Below the pieces are notes generated by a model. That model saw only the letters and a program-made list of their open reading frames with translations. It ran no database searches and had not been told where the DNA came from. The position numbers and the translations under genes were made by a program. A DNA stretch of 45,619 nt from Aeropyrum sp. (GTDB lineage: Archaea > Thermoproteota > Thermoprotei_A > Sulfolobales > Acidilobaceae): assembly GCA_015523465.1 (NCBI GenBank), contig WAKF01000030.1:1-45619 (forward strand), read 5' to 3'. Positions 16,379 through 23,324 of this stretch are shown piece after piece. Each line of letters begins with the position of its first letter. The stretch's first letter is position 1.

Positions 16379-16816
16379 CTAACAGCCCTCGCTTAACACA
16401 GCTTCTAAGAGGCGATCTGCAGCAGCCCTGTAATCCTCGGGGTAGAATCTAACCCTGAGCATAGGATAGCCTGGAAGCGAGTTGTCAACCTCGTACTCGA
16501 CCTTCAAGCCCCTTGCTGCTTTAAGTGTTATCAATAGAGCCCTACTTATACTATCCAGAGCCTCCTTTAATTCATCAACGCGAAACGGTGACTCGTCGAG
16601 CAAAGGTATTTGAGTCTCTATCATAGCCCCCCTACCAGGCTCGTCCTTAAGCTCTATCACAGCATCTCCCACATGAAGCCTCACCATGTCACCCTCGGCT
16701 TCAAACCTGCAACCTAGATTCTTAAGGCTCTTCTGGAGCTCGGCCGCTATGCCTTTCCCAGCATGGCCTGGAATTCCTACCTCTTCCTCATGACCGTTAC
16801 TCTCCACCTTCAACAC
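16379..16816 (-). CDS. Conserved-looking protein of unknown function
   Basis: A 145-residue soluble protein without signal peptide or membrane helix. Alternating hydrophobic residues (MVRLHVGDAVIELKDEPG), a central helix (VDELKEALDSISRALLITLKAARG) and a final strand-helix unit (PMLRVRFYPEDYRAAADRLLEAVL) suggest an alpha/beta fold. I do not recognise a family or an active site. Its start lies within the last codons of UMP kinase, a 20-base overlap, so translation is probably coupled. Candidate starts are GTG 16816, TTG 16813 and GTG 16807, the last following GGTG poorly. Cysteines at about 36 and 145 are isolated. Confidence 0.6.
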   Translation of the reverse strand: MLKVESNGHEEEVGIPGHAGKGIAAELQKSLKNLGCRFEAEGDMVRLHVGDAVIELKDEPGRGAMIETQIPLLDESPFRVDELKEALDSISRALLITLKAARGLKVEYEVDNSLPGYPMLRVRFYPEDYRAAADRLLEAVLSEGC

Positions 16817-17549
16817 CCAATATGCTACCCTTAATACCCATTAAAGCCTCAATAAAGTTTCTTGGATTGGATCCATCAAAGAATACGACTTTTATATTAC
16901 TTCTCCTAACAATATCAAGCGCTACCCGGTCCCAAAGGGTATAGGTGCCAGCTTTCCTCTCAAAACCCTCTATAATCCTCTCCATGTCGTCGTAAGAGAG
17001 CTTCCTCAAGATCCTACCTCCAGGCTCATCCTCGTAAACCCCCTCTACACCCCGTAAAGCATTAAGCACAACGCTACCCCCTCCGGCCTCTGCAAGGCTA
17101 GCTGCAACAGCATTAGTACTTTGACCCGGCTGCAAGCCCCCCATAACAGGTATAAGGCCTATTTGCACTACCCTGAGAGCCTCCTCTATAGAAGTTATGG
17201 GAACGGGAGGAGAACGCGGATATAATGCTTTTGATAGCATGGAAGCATTTAGCCTCGAAGCCTCTATACCCATGAGGTCTAGCAGGCCCTCATTAAGGCC
17301 AAGCCTTCTTAGAGCTTCAATGTAACTCCTAGCAAGCTCACCTCCCCCCACTACAAAGCCTACCTTAAAACCCATACCCTCAATCTCGGAGACAACCCTT
17401 GTAATGCCGGCAATGTAATCTGCGCTAGGAGGATAGAGAAGACGTCCACTAAGCTTGACAACGATAAGGCTTCCTATGGGGGCTAGGGGCTCGCCACGCT
17501 CGTGCACGGCCATCCCCTCTATGGGTGAGCCATTTAACCCTCCGCTCAC
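16797..17549 (-). CDS. pyrH: UMP kinase, archaeal type
   Basis: Phosphorylates UMP to UDP in pyrimidine biosynthesis. Archaeal PyrH features visible include VVKLSGRLL at the first strand, VGFVVGGGELARSYIEALRRLG (GGG phosphate loop), LDLMGIEASRLNASMLSKAL (UMP-binding helix), VMGGLQPGQSTNAVAASLAE and the late KAGTYTLWDRVALDIVRRSNIKV. The protein has an extra N-terminal stretch of about 25 residues. ATG at 17513 may be the true start rather than GTG at 17549, and neither has an ideal ribosome binding site. An AT-rich element (AATATTATTTAG on the minus strand, about 17560-17572) could be the promoter. It leads the run pyrH-unknown-malic enzyme-GNAT-GNAT. Confidence 0.88.
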   Translation of the reverse strand: MSGGLNGSPIEGMAVHERGEPLAPIGSLIVVKLSGRLLYPPSADYIAGITRVVSEIEGMGFKVGFVVGGGELARSYIEALRRLGLNEGLLDLMGIEASRLNASMLSKALYPRSPPVPITSIEEALRVVQIGLIPVMGGLQPGQSTNAVAASLAEAGGGSVVLNALRGVEGVYEDEPGGRILRKLSYDDMERIIEGFERKAGTYTLWDRVALDIVRRSNIKVVFFDGSNPRNFIEALMGIKGSILGVEGGE

Positions 17550-17732: not shown

Positions 17733-17981
17733 ATGGCGCTAAGTGACCTCTGGAAGGCTATAGAAGCGATTAGAGATGCATTCACCCTAACGGGCGTTGA
17801 CATCAGCTACTACTTAGTGTTGGGAGGGCTAGTGCTAATGCTGTTTACAGTGACATCGATAATCGGGCTCGTCGTCTACAAGTTCGTCAATAATGCGGTC
17901 AATGCAGATGCACTAGGGTTCGTGAAGTCAGTGGTCGTCGTGGCTCTAGCTATACTAGCGTTAGGCCTAATACTACCCTAG
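17733..17981 (+). CDS. Small two-helix membrane protein of unknown function
   Basis: An 82-residue protein with a short amphipathic start ([15 protein letters not shown]), a first membrane helix (about 27-52), a polar hinge ([10 protein letters not shown]) and a second helix (about 57-82) running to the C-terminus. There is no acidic residue within the second helix, so this is not the rotor (K/c) subunit of the nearby ATP synthase despite its size. ATG start with GGTGAGG four to five bases upstream gives good support for translation. The stop overlaps the converging atpD stop by four bases. Function unknown. Confidence 0.65.
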
Positions 17982-18616
17982 CCTCCAGCCTTCTTTTCAA
18001 GCTTTCTTTTAATAAGCTTCAATCTAATGAATTCTTCTCTCTGCCTATCCTCGAGCACTAGCTTAATGTACTTAATAGCATCCCTATAACTCGGAAGTAT
18101 AACATAGTCTAAAGCGTTTATTAATCTTTGTGTCTCCCTAAGCTCTTCTAATAGCCTATTGATGGTCTCTTCATATTCAGCCAGCTTAAGAAGCTTGGGA
18201 AGGAGCCTTCTTATCCCCTCGAAGGACTCATAGAGCTTGGGGTCTACTCCCGGAGGTAATGTAATAGGGGGTATAGTCTCTTCTGCCACATTGAAGGTGG
18301 GGATCCTTACTGCGAAGAGAACCCTCATACCCACATTAATCCTCAGCGTTTCTGGCACTGATTCAGCATAGACCTTAACGCGCTCGAATCCCTCACTAGC
18401 AGCGCCTACATAATAGCTACTATATATCCTCTCAAGTTCCTCTAGAACTTCCTCCCTATACCTAGCGTACTCAGAGGCAATGCTCGTGAGGTAATGGAGT
18501 ATAACTTCCCTCTTCTCCTCAATAACTCTTCTAATTCTAGTCATCATGGTATACTCTCTCCTAAGCCTGATTAGGTTAAGCTTAGTAGGTAGCACCTTCC
18601 TAGGGTCAATAGCCAA
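17978..18616 (-). CDS. atpD: A-type ATP synthase subunit D (central stalk)
   Basis: Rotor-shaft subunit joining the A3B3 head to the membrane ring. The family opening [18 protein letters not shown] is present. The long helical hairpin continues to the C-terminal [43 protein letters not shown], the best-conserved part of the family. TTG start at 18616 after a G7 run. Unlike the usual A-B-D order it does not follow atpB directly: three signalling genes lie between, and a clear TATA-like element (minus strand GGTATATAGG, 18651-18660) precedes it, so atpD probably has its own promoter. Confidence 0.93.
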
Positions 18617-18692: not shown

Positions 18693-20213
18693 TTAAAGTA
18701 GGCCTAGCTCCATCATAGCCTCTATCATATTCTTAGGCCTTAAAGCCCTTTCCAAGCTTAAGGCCTTAGAGAGAAAACCTGAAATGTCGATGGGACTCGT
18801 TGACGTAGCTTCTTCGATCTCCTTTAGAATGCATTTCTCATACTCGGAGACTACGTTAGCTATAAAAGTTGTGAAGGAGGGGTTAGAAGAGAGCATTTTA
18901 TTAATAGTTCTGGCAAGGTCCCTTGCATAATAGGACCTACTTAGCACGTCTATAACTCTTATTCTGCGTGTAATCAGGCTCATAAGAGCAGTATTAACTA
19001 TGGCGAGACACTCAGAATTCCTGCCTAAAAGGAGTCTTAGGGTGAAAGAAGCAAAATTAAACACGTCACTATCGAGCGAAACGTTAAGACCCTTATTGGC
19101 TAAGAGTAGCGGGTCAACGTATTCTATAGTGAACCTATCGACGGTTATACCTCTCATGGTAACATTGTAGCCTACAAAGTCGGAAATCTTGAATACTAAC
19201 TCACCACCCCTTCTTTTAAACAGTACGTTATTAGGTTTTACGTCAAAATGGCCTATGCCCATAGCATGTGCTACAGCTAAAGCGCCTCCGACGCTCTGTA
19301 TAATAATTACAAGGTTCCTCTTCAAATCACCTTCTTTGAGCTTAGTGATATCCCCTTCCATTAACTCGAGGGACGCTAGGGGCGGCGCTTTAATATAGTC
19401 CTCTAAACCGTCGTACCAGCCTTTCGGCGCTATTACAGCGTATACCTTTACTATGTTGCTGCGATACTTGAGTATAGAATCAGCATCAACGTCCCTGTAG
19501 TCCTGGGCGTTAAGCATCCTTATAAGCGTGCCCCTGTCTACGCTAGCTAGCCTTGCTTGCGCTGCATGTTCACCAATGAACTTGCTCACTTCTCTCTCAC
19601 TAGGCACTCCTCCTTCCTCACCTTTTAATACTTTAAGGGCTACTCTTACGCCCAGAGGGTCTAGGGCCTCTAGAATATAGCTAAAAGCTCCTTCCTTCCC
19701 CTCAGAGAGTATCGATGTCACCTTATACATGCCATAGAGTATAGACCCTACCCAAGCGTGGGGAGGCTTCTTCCTTTCTTCCTCTACGGCCGCGATAACT
19801 TCCGTCTTCAGTTCTTGATTATCAATACTCTCGATCGCAACTGAATACAGTATGGCATCGCAGTCTCCTTTAACTCTAGACAGGGACCTTAAAGCTTCCG
19901 ACCCTTGAATAGACTTCCCGCCTTCTACAAAATGCGCTGCTACTAAGACGTCTTTATATATGAGTAGCTCTGCGCTAAATTTTTCTCTGGAACCCTCAAG
20001 CACAACGAAGATCACTTTATTACTGCTCACACTCTCAGGAATAGCTTCTACAATATTATCTAGATTACACTCGCTAAAGCGTCTTCTAGCCTCTAACGAC
20101 GCAGAAAGGACTATGGACGCTTTCACGATAGGATCAGCAAATATAGAGCTAATTTTATCTATTTTCTTAGAAATCCTCACCCTCTTAGTGCCAGCCCCTC
20201 CCTCCCTCATCAT
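18693..20213 (-). CDS. Ser/Thr protein kinase (Hanks type) with an extra N-terminal domain
   Basis: A 506-residue soluble kinase. Residues 1-150 form an uncharacterised alpha/beta region. The kinase domain starts near 160, with a glycine-loop-like LSEGKEGAFSYILEA, VALK (Lys194), the catalytic loop HFDVKPNNVLF (Asp324, Lys326, Asn329), the metal motif ISDFVG (Asp345; Val in place of the DFG glycine), an APE-like EYVDP and SDVFNFASFTLRLLLG. All main catalytic residues are present, so activity is likely. ATG start at 20213 with GGAGGAT upstream. It is third in the VWA-FHA-kinase set; phosphorylated VWA protein recognised by the FHA protein, as for ArnA/ArnB in Sulfolobus, is the expected logic (inference). 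Confidence 0.87.
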   Translation of the reverse strand: MMREGGAGTKRVRISKKIDKISSIFADPIVKASIVLSASLEARRRFSECNLDNIVEAIPESVSSNKVIFVVLEGSREKFSAELLIYKDVLVAAHFVEGGKSIQGSEALRSLSRVKGDCDAILYSVAIESIDNQELKTEVIAAVEEERKKPPHAWVGSILYGMYKVTSILSEGKEGAFSYILEALDPLGVRVALKVLKGEEGGVPSEREVSKFIGEHAAQARLASVDRGTLIRMLNAQDYRDVDADSILKYRSNIVKVYAVIAPKGWYDGLEDYIKAPPLASLELMEGDITKLKEGDLKRNLVIIIQSVGGALAVAHAMGIGHFDVKPNNVLFKRRGGELVFKISDFVGYNVTMRGITVDRFTIEYVDPLLLANKGLNVSLDSDVFNFASFTLRLLLGRNSECLAIVNTALMSLITRRIRVIDVLSRSYYARDLARTINKMLSSNPSFTTFIANVVSEYEKCILKEIEEATSTSPIDISGFLSKALSLERALRPKNMIEAMMELGLL

Positions 20214-20263
20214 CTATATTATCCTCCGCAGTATAGAGGGTTCCCCATAGTGGTGCTAAGCCC

Positions 20264-20584
20264 CTACTCTCCCTCTCCCTCCACATTAACCTTAATTATG
20301 GTTGATCCAACTATAATCTCATCTCCATTACCGAGTTTAACAGGCCCTTTACCCTTTATGTCGGTTCCATTAACTATGGTTCCATTAGAGCTATCCAAGT
20401 CCTCTATATACCATGAACCGTCTCTGTAAAAGATCCTTGCATGCCTTCTAGAAACGTATTTATCCGTTACTGGTATGTGAACCCTGATATCACGTCCTAG
20501 TATGTATGTGCCCGGGTCTAAGACGACTCTAGTCCACGGTATTTCAAATAGGCTTCGTACAACCTCTAATACTAGTCTTGACAC
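20264..20584 (-). CDS. FHA-domain phosphothreonine-binding protein (ArnA-like, without zinc finger)
   Basis: About 106 residues, essentially one forkhead-associated domain that binds phosphothreonine peptides. Landmarks are YILGRD (Gly-Arg), VSRRHARIFYRDG, EDLDSSNGTIVNG and LGNGDEIIVG, so the phosphate-contacting Arg, Ser-Arg-Arg-His and Ser-Asn-Gly residues are intact. No zinc-finger extension is present, unlike Sulfolobus ArnA. GTG at 20593 is possible, but GTG at 20584 has GGGGTGA five bases upstream and is preferred. It begins within about 15 bases of the VWA stop, so the two are translated from one transcript. Confidence 0.88.
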   Translation of the reverse strand: MSRLVLEVVRSLFEIPWTRVVLDPGTYILGRDIRVHIPVTDKYVSRRHARIFYRDGSWYIEDLDSSNGTIVNGTDIKGKGPVKLGNGDEIIVGSTIIKVNVEGEGE

Positions 20585-20598
20585 CAAAGTCACCCCAG

Positions 20599-21813
20599 CT
20601 ACTCTTCCCTCTCTCTAAGGGCTTCCGAGGCTAGAGAGAAAAGCCTCTTACTCGCCTCGCCTAGCATGCCCTTCTCGAGCAGGCTAGCTATATCAACGGT
20701 CCTTTCGTGTAGAGATGTGTCTCCTAGGGTGAGTGTAGTTTCGGCTGCGCTAGCTATAAGCTGCAGGGCCTTTCTGTAATCTCTCTTCTCTAGGGCTCTC
20801 TTAATATCCTCAAACGACTTAAACAGTTTAACCTTGTACATCACGAAGTCGTTAATGCTTGTAGGCTCGCCTACAGGTAATGATATAACTAAGGGGCCTC
20901 TCCACGAGGTTCTCTGAGTTAACGGGTCCGTATATGAAACCCTAACTTCAAGGTCTAACGCCGATATAGTATCCTCTACGAAGACTTCGCCTGGAAGCTC
21001 TACAACCTCGCTAGCGGCAACAGAGCCAACGTTAACTATAATCTTGTCATCATCTTCCTCATAATCCCATCCATACACTCTAACCCTAGTCCCCAGAGAG
21101 GACTTAATTATGACTTGTACGTTTGCTGCAACGATCTTAGAAGCCCTTAGAATCTCCCTTGTAACGGGCTTATCCATTTCAGCTACGTCTGAAACGTGCT
21201 CTAGCACGCCTCCTTTTACCTTAGCTATCTCTGCCAATAGTTTCTCATTGTAATCGCTACCCACTCCGATAGCAGTAACTGTTATAGGGGCTCCTCCCAC
21301 ATACTTTTTCAATAAATCCTTAAGTTTCTGAGGGTCTTTTTCGCCGTAGTTAGGCTCTCCATCAGTTATTAAGACTATAACTCCTACGCCACCATAACTG
21401 GATATCATGTTCTTAGCTACCACTATGGCATCTATTAGGGCCGCTTCAATGTTAGTGCCGGGGCACGTCCTTATTCTAGCTATGCTTCTAATAGCGTTTC
21501 TTTTGGTTTCTTCGCCTTCAAGCTTAGCCGGACCAAATACTATCTCGCTAGTCCTACAAAACCTTATTATCGCAATACCGTCTCCTATATCTAAAAGGTC
21601 CAAGGATTTTATGGCGGCGTGTTTAGCGAAGAATAGCCTCTCACCATCCATAGACTTGCTAGCATCTATAACGTAGACTACATTGGCTCGGCCTCGTGAA
21701 GATGAAGAGCCTGTTACTCTTAAAAGGAACTCGACTTTATCGCTATCAACAGCGTTTTTTGAGGTTACTAAGGACACACTCAAAGGATCCCTTTCAATAG
21801 CCTTAAATGACAT
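20599..21813 (-). CDS. VWA-domain protein (ArnB-like: VWA, beta-sandwich and helical tail)
   Basis: A 404-residue cytoplasmic protein. The von Willebrand A domain has a complete metal site: DASKS (Asp50, Ser52, Ser54), Thr120 in PGTNIEA and Asp151 in ITDGEP. A beta-rich part follows (about 230-320), then a helical end (about 325-404) with DFVMYKVKLFKSFEDIKRALEKRDY. This three-part layout matches crenarchaeal ArnB-type proteins, which are kinase targets and FHA partners in archaellum control. Here no archaellum gene is near, and the gene follows atpB after 107 AT-rich bases. ATG start with GGGTGG upstream. The helical tail contains several Thr/Ser that could be phosphorylated. Confidence 0.87.
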   Translation of the reverse strand: MSFKAIERDPLSVSLVTSKNAVDSDKVEFLLRVTGSSSSRGRANVVYVIDASKSMDGERLFFAKHAAIKSLDLLDIGDGIAIIRFCRTSEIVFGPAKLEGEETKRNAIRSIARIRTCPGTNIEAALIDAIVVAKNMISSYGGVGVIVLITDGEPNYGEKDPQKLKDLLKKYVGGAPITVTAIGVGSDYNEKLLAEIAKVKGGVLEHVSDVAEMDKPVTREILRASKIVAANVQVIIKSSLGTRVRVYGWDYEEDDDKIIVNVGSVAASEVVELPGEVFVEDTISALDLEVRVSYTDPLTQRTSWRGPLVISLPVGEPTSINDFVMYKVKLFKSFEDIKRALEKRDYRKALQLIASAAETTLTLGDTSLHERTVDIASLLEKGMLGEASKRLFSLASEALREREE

Positions 21814-21862
21814 AGCGCTTCCACCCTAACCCTCCACAGTTTAAGACGTATAGGTGGATTTC

Positions 21863-21901
21863 AAAAATTTTAGGTAAAAAGCTTAACGTAGCGGAAGAAA
21901 A
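21863..21901 (-). terminator. Oligo-T tract downstream of atpB (possible terminator)
   Basis: Just after the atpB stop, the minus strand carries three T runs (about T4 at 21901-21898, T5 at 21880-21876, T5 at 21867-21863), the kind of signal used for archaeal transcription termination. Beyond it an AT-rich element at about 21841-21847 could start the VWA-FHA-kinase transcript. Confidence 0.45.
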
Positions 21902-21920
21902 CCGTATTACCAATACAATT

Positions 21921-23324
21921 TTAGGCGGAGTGTTTATACTTGGGATGATATTTCCTTATAGTCTCCTCCTTAATGTTAGTCAATTCCTCCTCAGGGAGTA
22001 CGGAAAGCACCTCCCATGCAAGGTCTAGAGTCTCCTCTATACTCCTATTTTCCCTCTCACCCTGGCTCAAGAACCTTCTCTCGAAGAGATCGGCAAACCT
22101 CAGATACCTCCTATCTACTTCGCTCAAGCTCTCTTCCCCTACTATAGCCGCTAGGCTCCTTAGCTCAACTCCCCTACTATAGCTGGCATAGAGCTGATTA
22201 CTCACCTCTGCATGATCTTCTCTAGTCTTACCCGGCCCTATACCCTCTTTCATTAGCCTTGAAAGGCTCATGAGAACATTTATCGGCGGGTAGATCCCTC
22301 TGTTGTGGAGTTCTCTGCTCAAGACTATCTGCCCCTCTGTTATATAGCCTGTTAGGTCTGGTATAGGGTGGGTTATGTCGTCGTTAGGCATTGTTAGTAT
22401 GGGCATCTGCGTTATACTACCCTTCTTGCCTTTAACCCTGCCAGCCCTTTCGTAAATGCTAGCTAGGTCGCTATAGAGGTATCCTGGGTATCCCTGCCTT
22501 CCGGGCACCTCTTCTCTCGCACTACTAATCTCTCTTAAAGCCTCGGCGTAGTTAGTCATATCTGTAAGTATAACAAGGACGTGCATGTCCCTCTCGTAAG
22601 CTAGATATTCTGCAAGGGTCAAGGCTGCTCTAGGAGTTATAAGCCTGATCATTGCGGGCTCGTCAGCCAAGTTAACGAACATCGCAACCCTACCTAGAGC
22701 CCCGGTCTCCTCAAAGAACTTCCTGAAGAACAGGAAGTCGTCATACTTTATGCCTATTGCAGCGAAGACTACTGCAAACTCCTCTTCCTCGCCTCTAACT
22801 GTAGCCTGCCTTGCAATCTGGGCTGCAAGCCTATTATGAGGTAAGCCGCTACCACTAAAGATTGGGAGCTTTTGACCCCTCACCAGCGTGTTCATCCCGT
22901 CAATAGCGCTTACACCGGTTTGAATGAAATCTTCGGGATAAGCTCTCTCAGCCGGATTCAAGGGGGCCCCATTGACGTCACGCCTCTCTTCAGCTATAAT
23001 AGGGGGCCCACCGTCTATAGGCTCGCCCAGCCCGTTAAAGATCCTACCCAACATGTCCTCGCTTACAGGTATCTCTAGAGGCTTGCCTAGAAACCTTATA
23101 GTAGTGCCCATAGGGCTAATGCCCGTCGTGCCCTCGAAGACTTGTACTATGGCATAGCCCATACCAACTTCTAAAACCCTACCTCTCCTCTTCTCCCCGC
23201 TTGGCAGCTCTACCTCAACTATCTCGTCATAAGCGACTCTAGAAACTCCCTCAACAACGACTAGAGGCCCCTTAATCTCTCCTACCCTGGTATACTCTCT
23301 TACCCCCAAAGACACGACATTCAC
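21921..23324 (-). CDS. atpB: A-type ATP synthase subunit B (regulatory, non-catalytic)
   Basis: A 467-residue head subunit alternating with subunit A. It contains [16 protein letters not shown] near the N-terminus, [33 protein letters not shown] (degenerate P-loop typical of B subunits), [20 protein letters not shown] and the C-terminal [23 protein letters not shown]. No P-loop lysine is present, as expected. The ATG/TTG-region start at 23324 is followed by [17 protein letters not shown], the family start. It begins three bases after atpA ends; downstream the expected atpD is displaced by the VWA-FHA-kinase genes. Confidence 0.96.

Follow-up and report, generated by a model that had tools for sequence, protein, structure and literature searches.

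A VWA-FHA-kinase gene trio between atpB and atpD of an Aeropyrum genome as a probable phosphothreonine-signalling operon related to Sulfolobus ArnA-ArnB

Does a set of Ser/Thr kinase, FHA and VWA genes lying between two ATP-synthase subunit genes serve the ATP synthase, or is it a unit of its own that came to stand there? The question is raised by a contig of an Aeropyrum genome, of which the whole stretch analysed (the window) measures 45,619 nucleotides. The open reading frames and their Pfam domains match an earlier description of three co-oriented genes between atpB and atpD. On the reverse strand, the upstream flank atpB (21921..23324; Pfam ATP-synt_ab, 1.8e-81) is followed, after 107 bp, by the gene of a 404-residue protein with a MIDAS-containing VWA domain, a beta-sandwich and a C-terminal helix bundle (20599..21813; Pfam VWA, 7e-15), 5 bp further on by that of a 109-residue protein made of a lone FHA domain (20264..20593; Pfam FHA, 1.2e-21) and, after another 50 bp, by that of a Hanks-type Ser/Thr kinase of 506 residues (18693..20213; Pfam Pkinase, 8.5e-10), with 76 bp separating the latter from the downstream flank atpD (17978..18616; Pfam ATP-synt_D, 1e-44).

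Convergent to atpD, on the forward strand, lies an open reading frame of 82 codons (17733-17981) with two predicted membrane stretches, which stays beside atpD in many family members, even where atpD has left atpB. Its product gave no Pfam or NCBIfam match; the second membrane stretch is without an acidic residue, and a c-subunit (atpK) label is unsupported. A UMP kinase gene (16797-17549) also adjoins atpD in the window.

Gene order at the insertion site

The comparison within the genus comprised six genomes, namely the window genome (G000), G149, G027, G075, G087 and G148. In the last four, atpB is directly followed by atpD at a distance of 37 to 132 bp, the trio is absent and the surrounding gene order is otherwise unchanged. 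In G149, the trio is found at the identical site, and its VWA protein is 77% identical to that of the window genome. There, the locus is carried by two contigs, one reading atpD-kinase-FHA-VWA and the other VWA-atpB-atpA-atpE-atpF-atpI, which share an overlap of 399 bp (97.7% identity). G149 is also the closest congener (atpD 84% identical versus 64-68% for the others), and the simplest reading of this distribution is that the trio was inserted once, in the common ancestor of G000 and G149. The GC content of the trio is 0.42-0.45 in G000 and 0.52-0.55 in G149; most simply, enough time has elapsed since the insertion for its base composition to follow that of each host genome. The dN values between the two genomes are 0.15 for the VWA gene, 0.14 for the FHA gene and 0.34 for the kinase gene, with dS saturated for most genes. 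The low amino-acid divergence, combined with saturated synonymous sites, thus indicates purifying selection on the trio.

The window genome is a draft in 92 contigs, and an artefact of assembly could in principle create such an arrangement, but the expected syntenic atp genes flank the trio on either side and both junctions are also present in the two overlapping contigs of G149, so that the probability of an artefact is negligible; an assembly chimera is ruled out by G149. The adjacency of atpB and atpD, which the earlier note had taken as the normal state, was observed in the four congeners and in six other inspected genomes of the family, but does not extend to ten others, in which atpD is detached.

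The trio across the order and its relation to the atp genes

The searches, made with atpD, the FHA protein and the VWA protein, covered the order with 147 genomes, the family with 48, and also named GTDB contigs. Besides the two congeners, about 25-30 genomes of the order carry the VWA, FHA and kinase genes in this fixed order and on one strand, and the arrangement is kept in genomes of five families. Relatives of the FHA protein are 103-130 residues long. No ATP-synthase subunit gene is present in the fetched flanks of any other trio locus (several of these are short contigs), and on four single-contig chromosomes the distance between the trio and atpD amounts to 390, 565, 599 and 881 kb. The neighbours vary by family and include CTP synthase, a WD40 protein with PRPP synthetase, PhoU, inositol phosphatase, isocitrate/isopropylmalate dehydrogenase, class II aldolase and others, with no recurring neighbour family travelling with the trio except among close relatives. 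Because the neighbours vary, and atpD itself is detached in ten family members, position alone is poor evidence for function, as is an insertion that is absent from most relatives.

Several loci deserve mention in their own right. At L078, L077 and L176, at L079, L117, L119 and L124, and at L083 the trio lies near nucleotide-synthesis genes (PRPP synthetase, CTP synthase and, 7 kb off in L083, UMP kinase), which may be due to chance. L073 (G013:C6) encodes an additional VWA protein that belongs to the trio clade and has no adjoining FHA or kinase gene, probably a duplicate, and in L156, L206 and L210, from other Thermoproteota, a longer VWA protein is encoded with an FHA gene on each side. An archaeal phage-type integrase gene (L093:6066-7334; Pfam, 3e-24) adjoins one trio and offers a possible route of relocation. 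A description of the three-gene operon was not found in the open-access literature, and an earlier mention is possible; ArnA and ArnB, for their part, often share a predicted operon, which is never located within archaellum or pilus loci (PMC4858521).

The spacers between atpB and the VWA gene of G000 and G149 are otherwise unlike, and their longest common word is AAATTTTTGAAA (21859..21870, reverse strand, in the window), which lies 45 nt (G000) and 55 nt (G149) before the start codon. A common word of this length was obtained in 8 of 2000 shuffles. The element is promoter-like and would fit a promoter of the trio. In the kinase-atpD spacer no element before atpD is shared by the same two genomes (longest common word, 6). 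Of the T-runs after atpB and the TATA box before atpD that had been noted earlier, the T-runs and a TATATA are present in the window, but they are not conserved in G149.

Taking these data into account, a regulatory role of the trio at the A-type ATP synthase, with the kinase phosphorylating an Atp subunit and the VWA and FHA proteins acting as scaffold and reader, is very unlikely. Phosphorylation of an archaeal A subunit does occur in vivo, at T332 of the ATP synthase A subunit SiRe_1441 of Sulfolobus islandicus (PMC7744417), and two species do hold the trio between atpB and atpD, but four congeners have the same atp genes and no trio, the trio lies away from the atp genes in all other carriers examined, the atpB-atpD linkage is broken in ten family members with no trio there, and AAATTTTTGAAA suggests a separate promoter. 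The gene-order comparison that the earlier note had proposed does not support the tie to the ATP synthase or to energy state that it had drawn: linkage of trio and atp genes is confined to two congeneric genomes, the trio is not linked to them elsewhere, and the atpB-atpD adjacency is otherwise broken in the family. The same note had regarded its proposal as refuted if the insertion occurred in this genome only, the module lay elsewhere in relatives and ATP-synthase subunits were neither bound nor phosphorylated; the module does lie elsewhere in relatives, but the insertion is shared by G149. ATP-synthase regulation deduced from gene context was thus rejected over the whole set of order and family genomes and named contigs.

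That the position serves co-expression only, the trio behind atpB being transcribed along with the atp operon and thereby in step with growth, whatever its target, is also quite unlikely: the promoter-like element ahead of the VWA gene and the wide spacers (107 and 133 bp) argue against it, even if the trio is on the same strand as atpB and atpD, the position is retained in two species and the T-runs are not conserved in G149. The trio is better regarded as an independent cassette than as a recognizable ATP-synthase regulator, since it was never found near atpD in other carriers.

An ArnB-like VWA protein, a single FHA domain and a non-RD kinase

The AlphaFold2 model of the VWA protein (pLDDT, 91.7) found as its best Foldseek match in the PDB the ArnB of the ArnAB complex (8s05; E, 1.9e-29; TM, 0.76/0.80), with ArnE/vWA2 (5a8j) in fourth place, so that the structure-based comparison with ArnB suggested in the earlier note did return the ArnB fold. 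A sequence profile gave the same structures (8s05, 1.8e-40; 5a8j, 4e-33) with a match spanning 28-389 of 411 positions. Thus, on the basis of model and profile, the protein belongs to the ArnB-like fold family, with a MIDAS VWA domain, a beta-sandwich and a C-terminal four-helix bundle; the Pfam model of the ArnB C-terminal domain gave no match in it. The MIDAS residues D50, S52, S54, T120 and D151 are all present and, in the alignment, invariant among the 24 trio VWA proteins, in agreement with their description as MIDAS-competent.

From the secondary structure of the model, the C-terminal helix bundle comprises residues 322-398 (20620..20850, reverse strand) and harbours T360 (20734-20736, reverse strand) and T372 (20698-20700, reverse strand). 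Position 360 is Thr in 23 of the 24 trio proteins and Ser in the remaining one, with Ala or Pro in the alignable relatives. At position +3 of both residues, Ile, Leu or Val is found in nearly all members, a preference of some FHA domains, but one that a buried helix face would produce as well. T372 is Thr in all 24, is in register with T344 of the LIETT motif of ArnB, and is Thr in many relatives too. Its conservation may therefore be structural, since it extends to the ArnB/ArnE-type relatives, including ArnE, which does not bind ArnA (PMC12852372). The shared Thr weakens T372 as a trio-specific phosphosite.

In a maximum-likelihood tree, rooted at midpoint only, all trio VWA proteins group together (94/96) and separately from the ArnB/ArnE-type proteins of the Sulfolobaceae and other families, and the ten from the window's family form one clade of their own (100/99), with G000 and G149 inside. 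As far as can be judged from sequences, the VWA protein is a sister-type relative rather than an ArnB orthologue. This topology is consistent with an inheritance that was vertical for the most part and accompanied by numerous losses, by relocation and by at least one interfamily transfer (G118 among f3).

The FHA protein conforms to the single FHA domain initially described, being a lone domain of approximately 110 residues with an intact pocket: R34, S48 and N70 complete the phosphothreonine site and, with the remaining pocket, are invariant in 21 relatives. Its profile matches the ArnA structures 5a8i and 8s05_C, as well as GarA/OdhI (about 2e-12). The N-terminal zinc ribbon and the long linker of ArnA (about 210-230 aa) are absent from the 109 residues. 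On another contig of the window genome (G000:C24:5781-5951, L072), a further FHA domain, with a weaker match (36.5 bits), was observed in an open frame of 277 codons.

In the kinase, K194, D324, N329 (HFDVKPNN) and D345 are kept in nearly all relatives and provide the Hanks-type set of catalytic Lys, catalytic Asp, Asn and Mg-binding Asp. However, the Arg of HRD and the Gly of DFG are lost, with HFD and DFV in their place (a non-RD kinase), so that the term intact, as applied to it earlier, holds for the catalytic residues but not beyond them. The structure model contains the kinase core, which is preceded by an N-terminal region of approximately 150 residues; no Pfam match was obtained for this region, and Foldseek with the whole chain gave kinase matches only. 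The PADLOC matches of the kinase concern kinase domains in general and give no reason to regard it as a defence gene.

A putative phosphorylation circuit and its known relatives

Most of what is known about Ser/Thr signalling in archaea comes from Sulfolobus, in which the genes of ArnA/ArnB stand apart from those of the kinases, and the latter had to be identified by screening. In the archaellum network, ArnC phosphorylates the helix bundle of ArnB, and the FHA domain of ArnA then binds there (PMC12852372; PMC6509490). By analogy, the kinase of the trio would phosphorylate the helix bundle of the ArnB-like VWA protein, the FHA protein would dock on the phosphorylated bundle, and formation or release of the complex would alter binding by the MIDAS face or by the FHA protein; a metabolic or stress target may be guessed as output. 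Such a writer-substrate-reader relation of kinase, VWA and FHA proteins, which takes up the phosphorylation circuit with VWA substrate or scaffold and FHA reader proposed in the earlier note, is the best model and is well supported by analogy, given the ArnB fold, the intact reader residues and the kinase in a conserved operon. An ArnAB-like complex would differ in detail because the ArnA zinc finger, which contacts ArnB, is absent.

The similarity to ArnA-ArnB might also suggest that the trio regulates motility or surface structures, given that the VWA protein folds like ArnB and the profile of the FHA protein matches ArnA. However, this is unlikely, as the FHA protein is without a zinc ribbon and the window genome (rated 96.6% complete) gave no archaellin match, while control genomes did. 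Over the order, archaellin is present in 6 of 19 trio genomes versus 63 of 128 others (p, 0.22), that is, with no association, and in the draw of family genomes the two are mutually exclusive (archaellin in none of four trio genomes versus 11 of 17 others; p, 0.035 with relatedness ignored). The missing ArnA zinc ribbon and the lack of archaellin in the genome make archaellum control an improbable output, and the distribution of archaellin led to its rejection as a general role of the trio.

Thus, the trio is probably a self-contained archaeal phosphothreonine-signalling operon, sister of Sulfolobus ArnA-ArnB and equipped with its own kinase, in which signals would pass from kinase to helix bundle to FHA protein, and, taken together with this reading, the cassette was probably inherited for the most part within the family and reached its place between the two atp genes before G000 and G149 diverged. 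That this portable cassette, with its ArnB-like VWA protein of the Sec23/24 fold, is an old archaeal signalling unit, of which the ArnA-ArnB motility switch is a specialized relative, and that in two Aeropyrum-like species it was in addition placed among the ATP-synthase genes to tie its dose to energy metabolism, is a possible but rather doubtful extension.

Among known systems, GarA/OdhI, the single-FHA proteins of Actinobacteria, resemble the trio in that a small FHA protein works with a Hanks-type kinase, but to our knowledge they have no VWA partner, and their N-terminal phospho-switch would find little room in the trio FHA protein because the FHA domain starts near the N-terminus. ArnE (vWA2), the paralogue of ArnB, has the fold and domain order of the trio VWA protein (5a8j; profile E, 4e-33), but is without an equivalent of T360. 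ArnA-ArnB with ArnC/ArnD share with the trio the VWA fold, the MIDAS and the C-terminal helix bundle, along with an adjacent FHA gene and a Hanks-type kinase as the presumed writer. They differ from it in that the trio has its kinase in the operon, the order VWA-FHA-kinase, an FHA protein with neither zinc ribbon nor linker, and a VWA protein of a separate clade in which T360 takes the position of an Ala in ArnB. By bundling the likely writer, substrate and reader, the operon offers a minimal circuit that is open to experiment, as well as a setting in which to consider how ArnAB arose.
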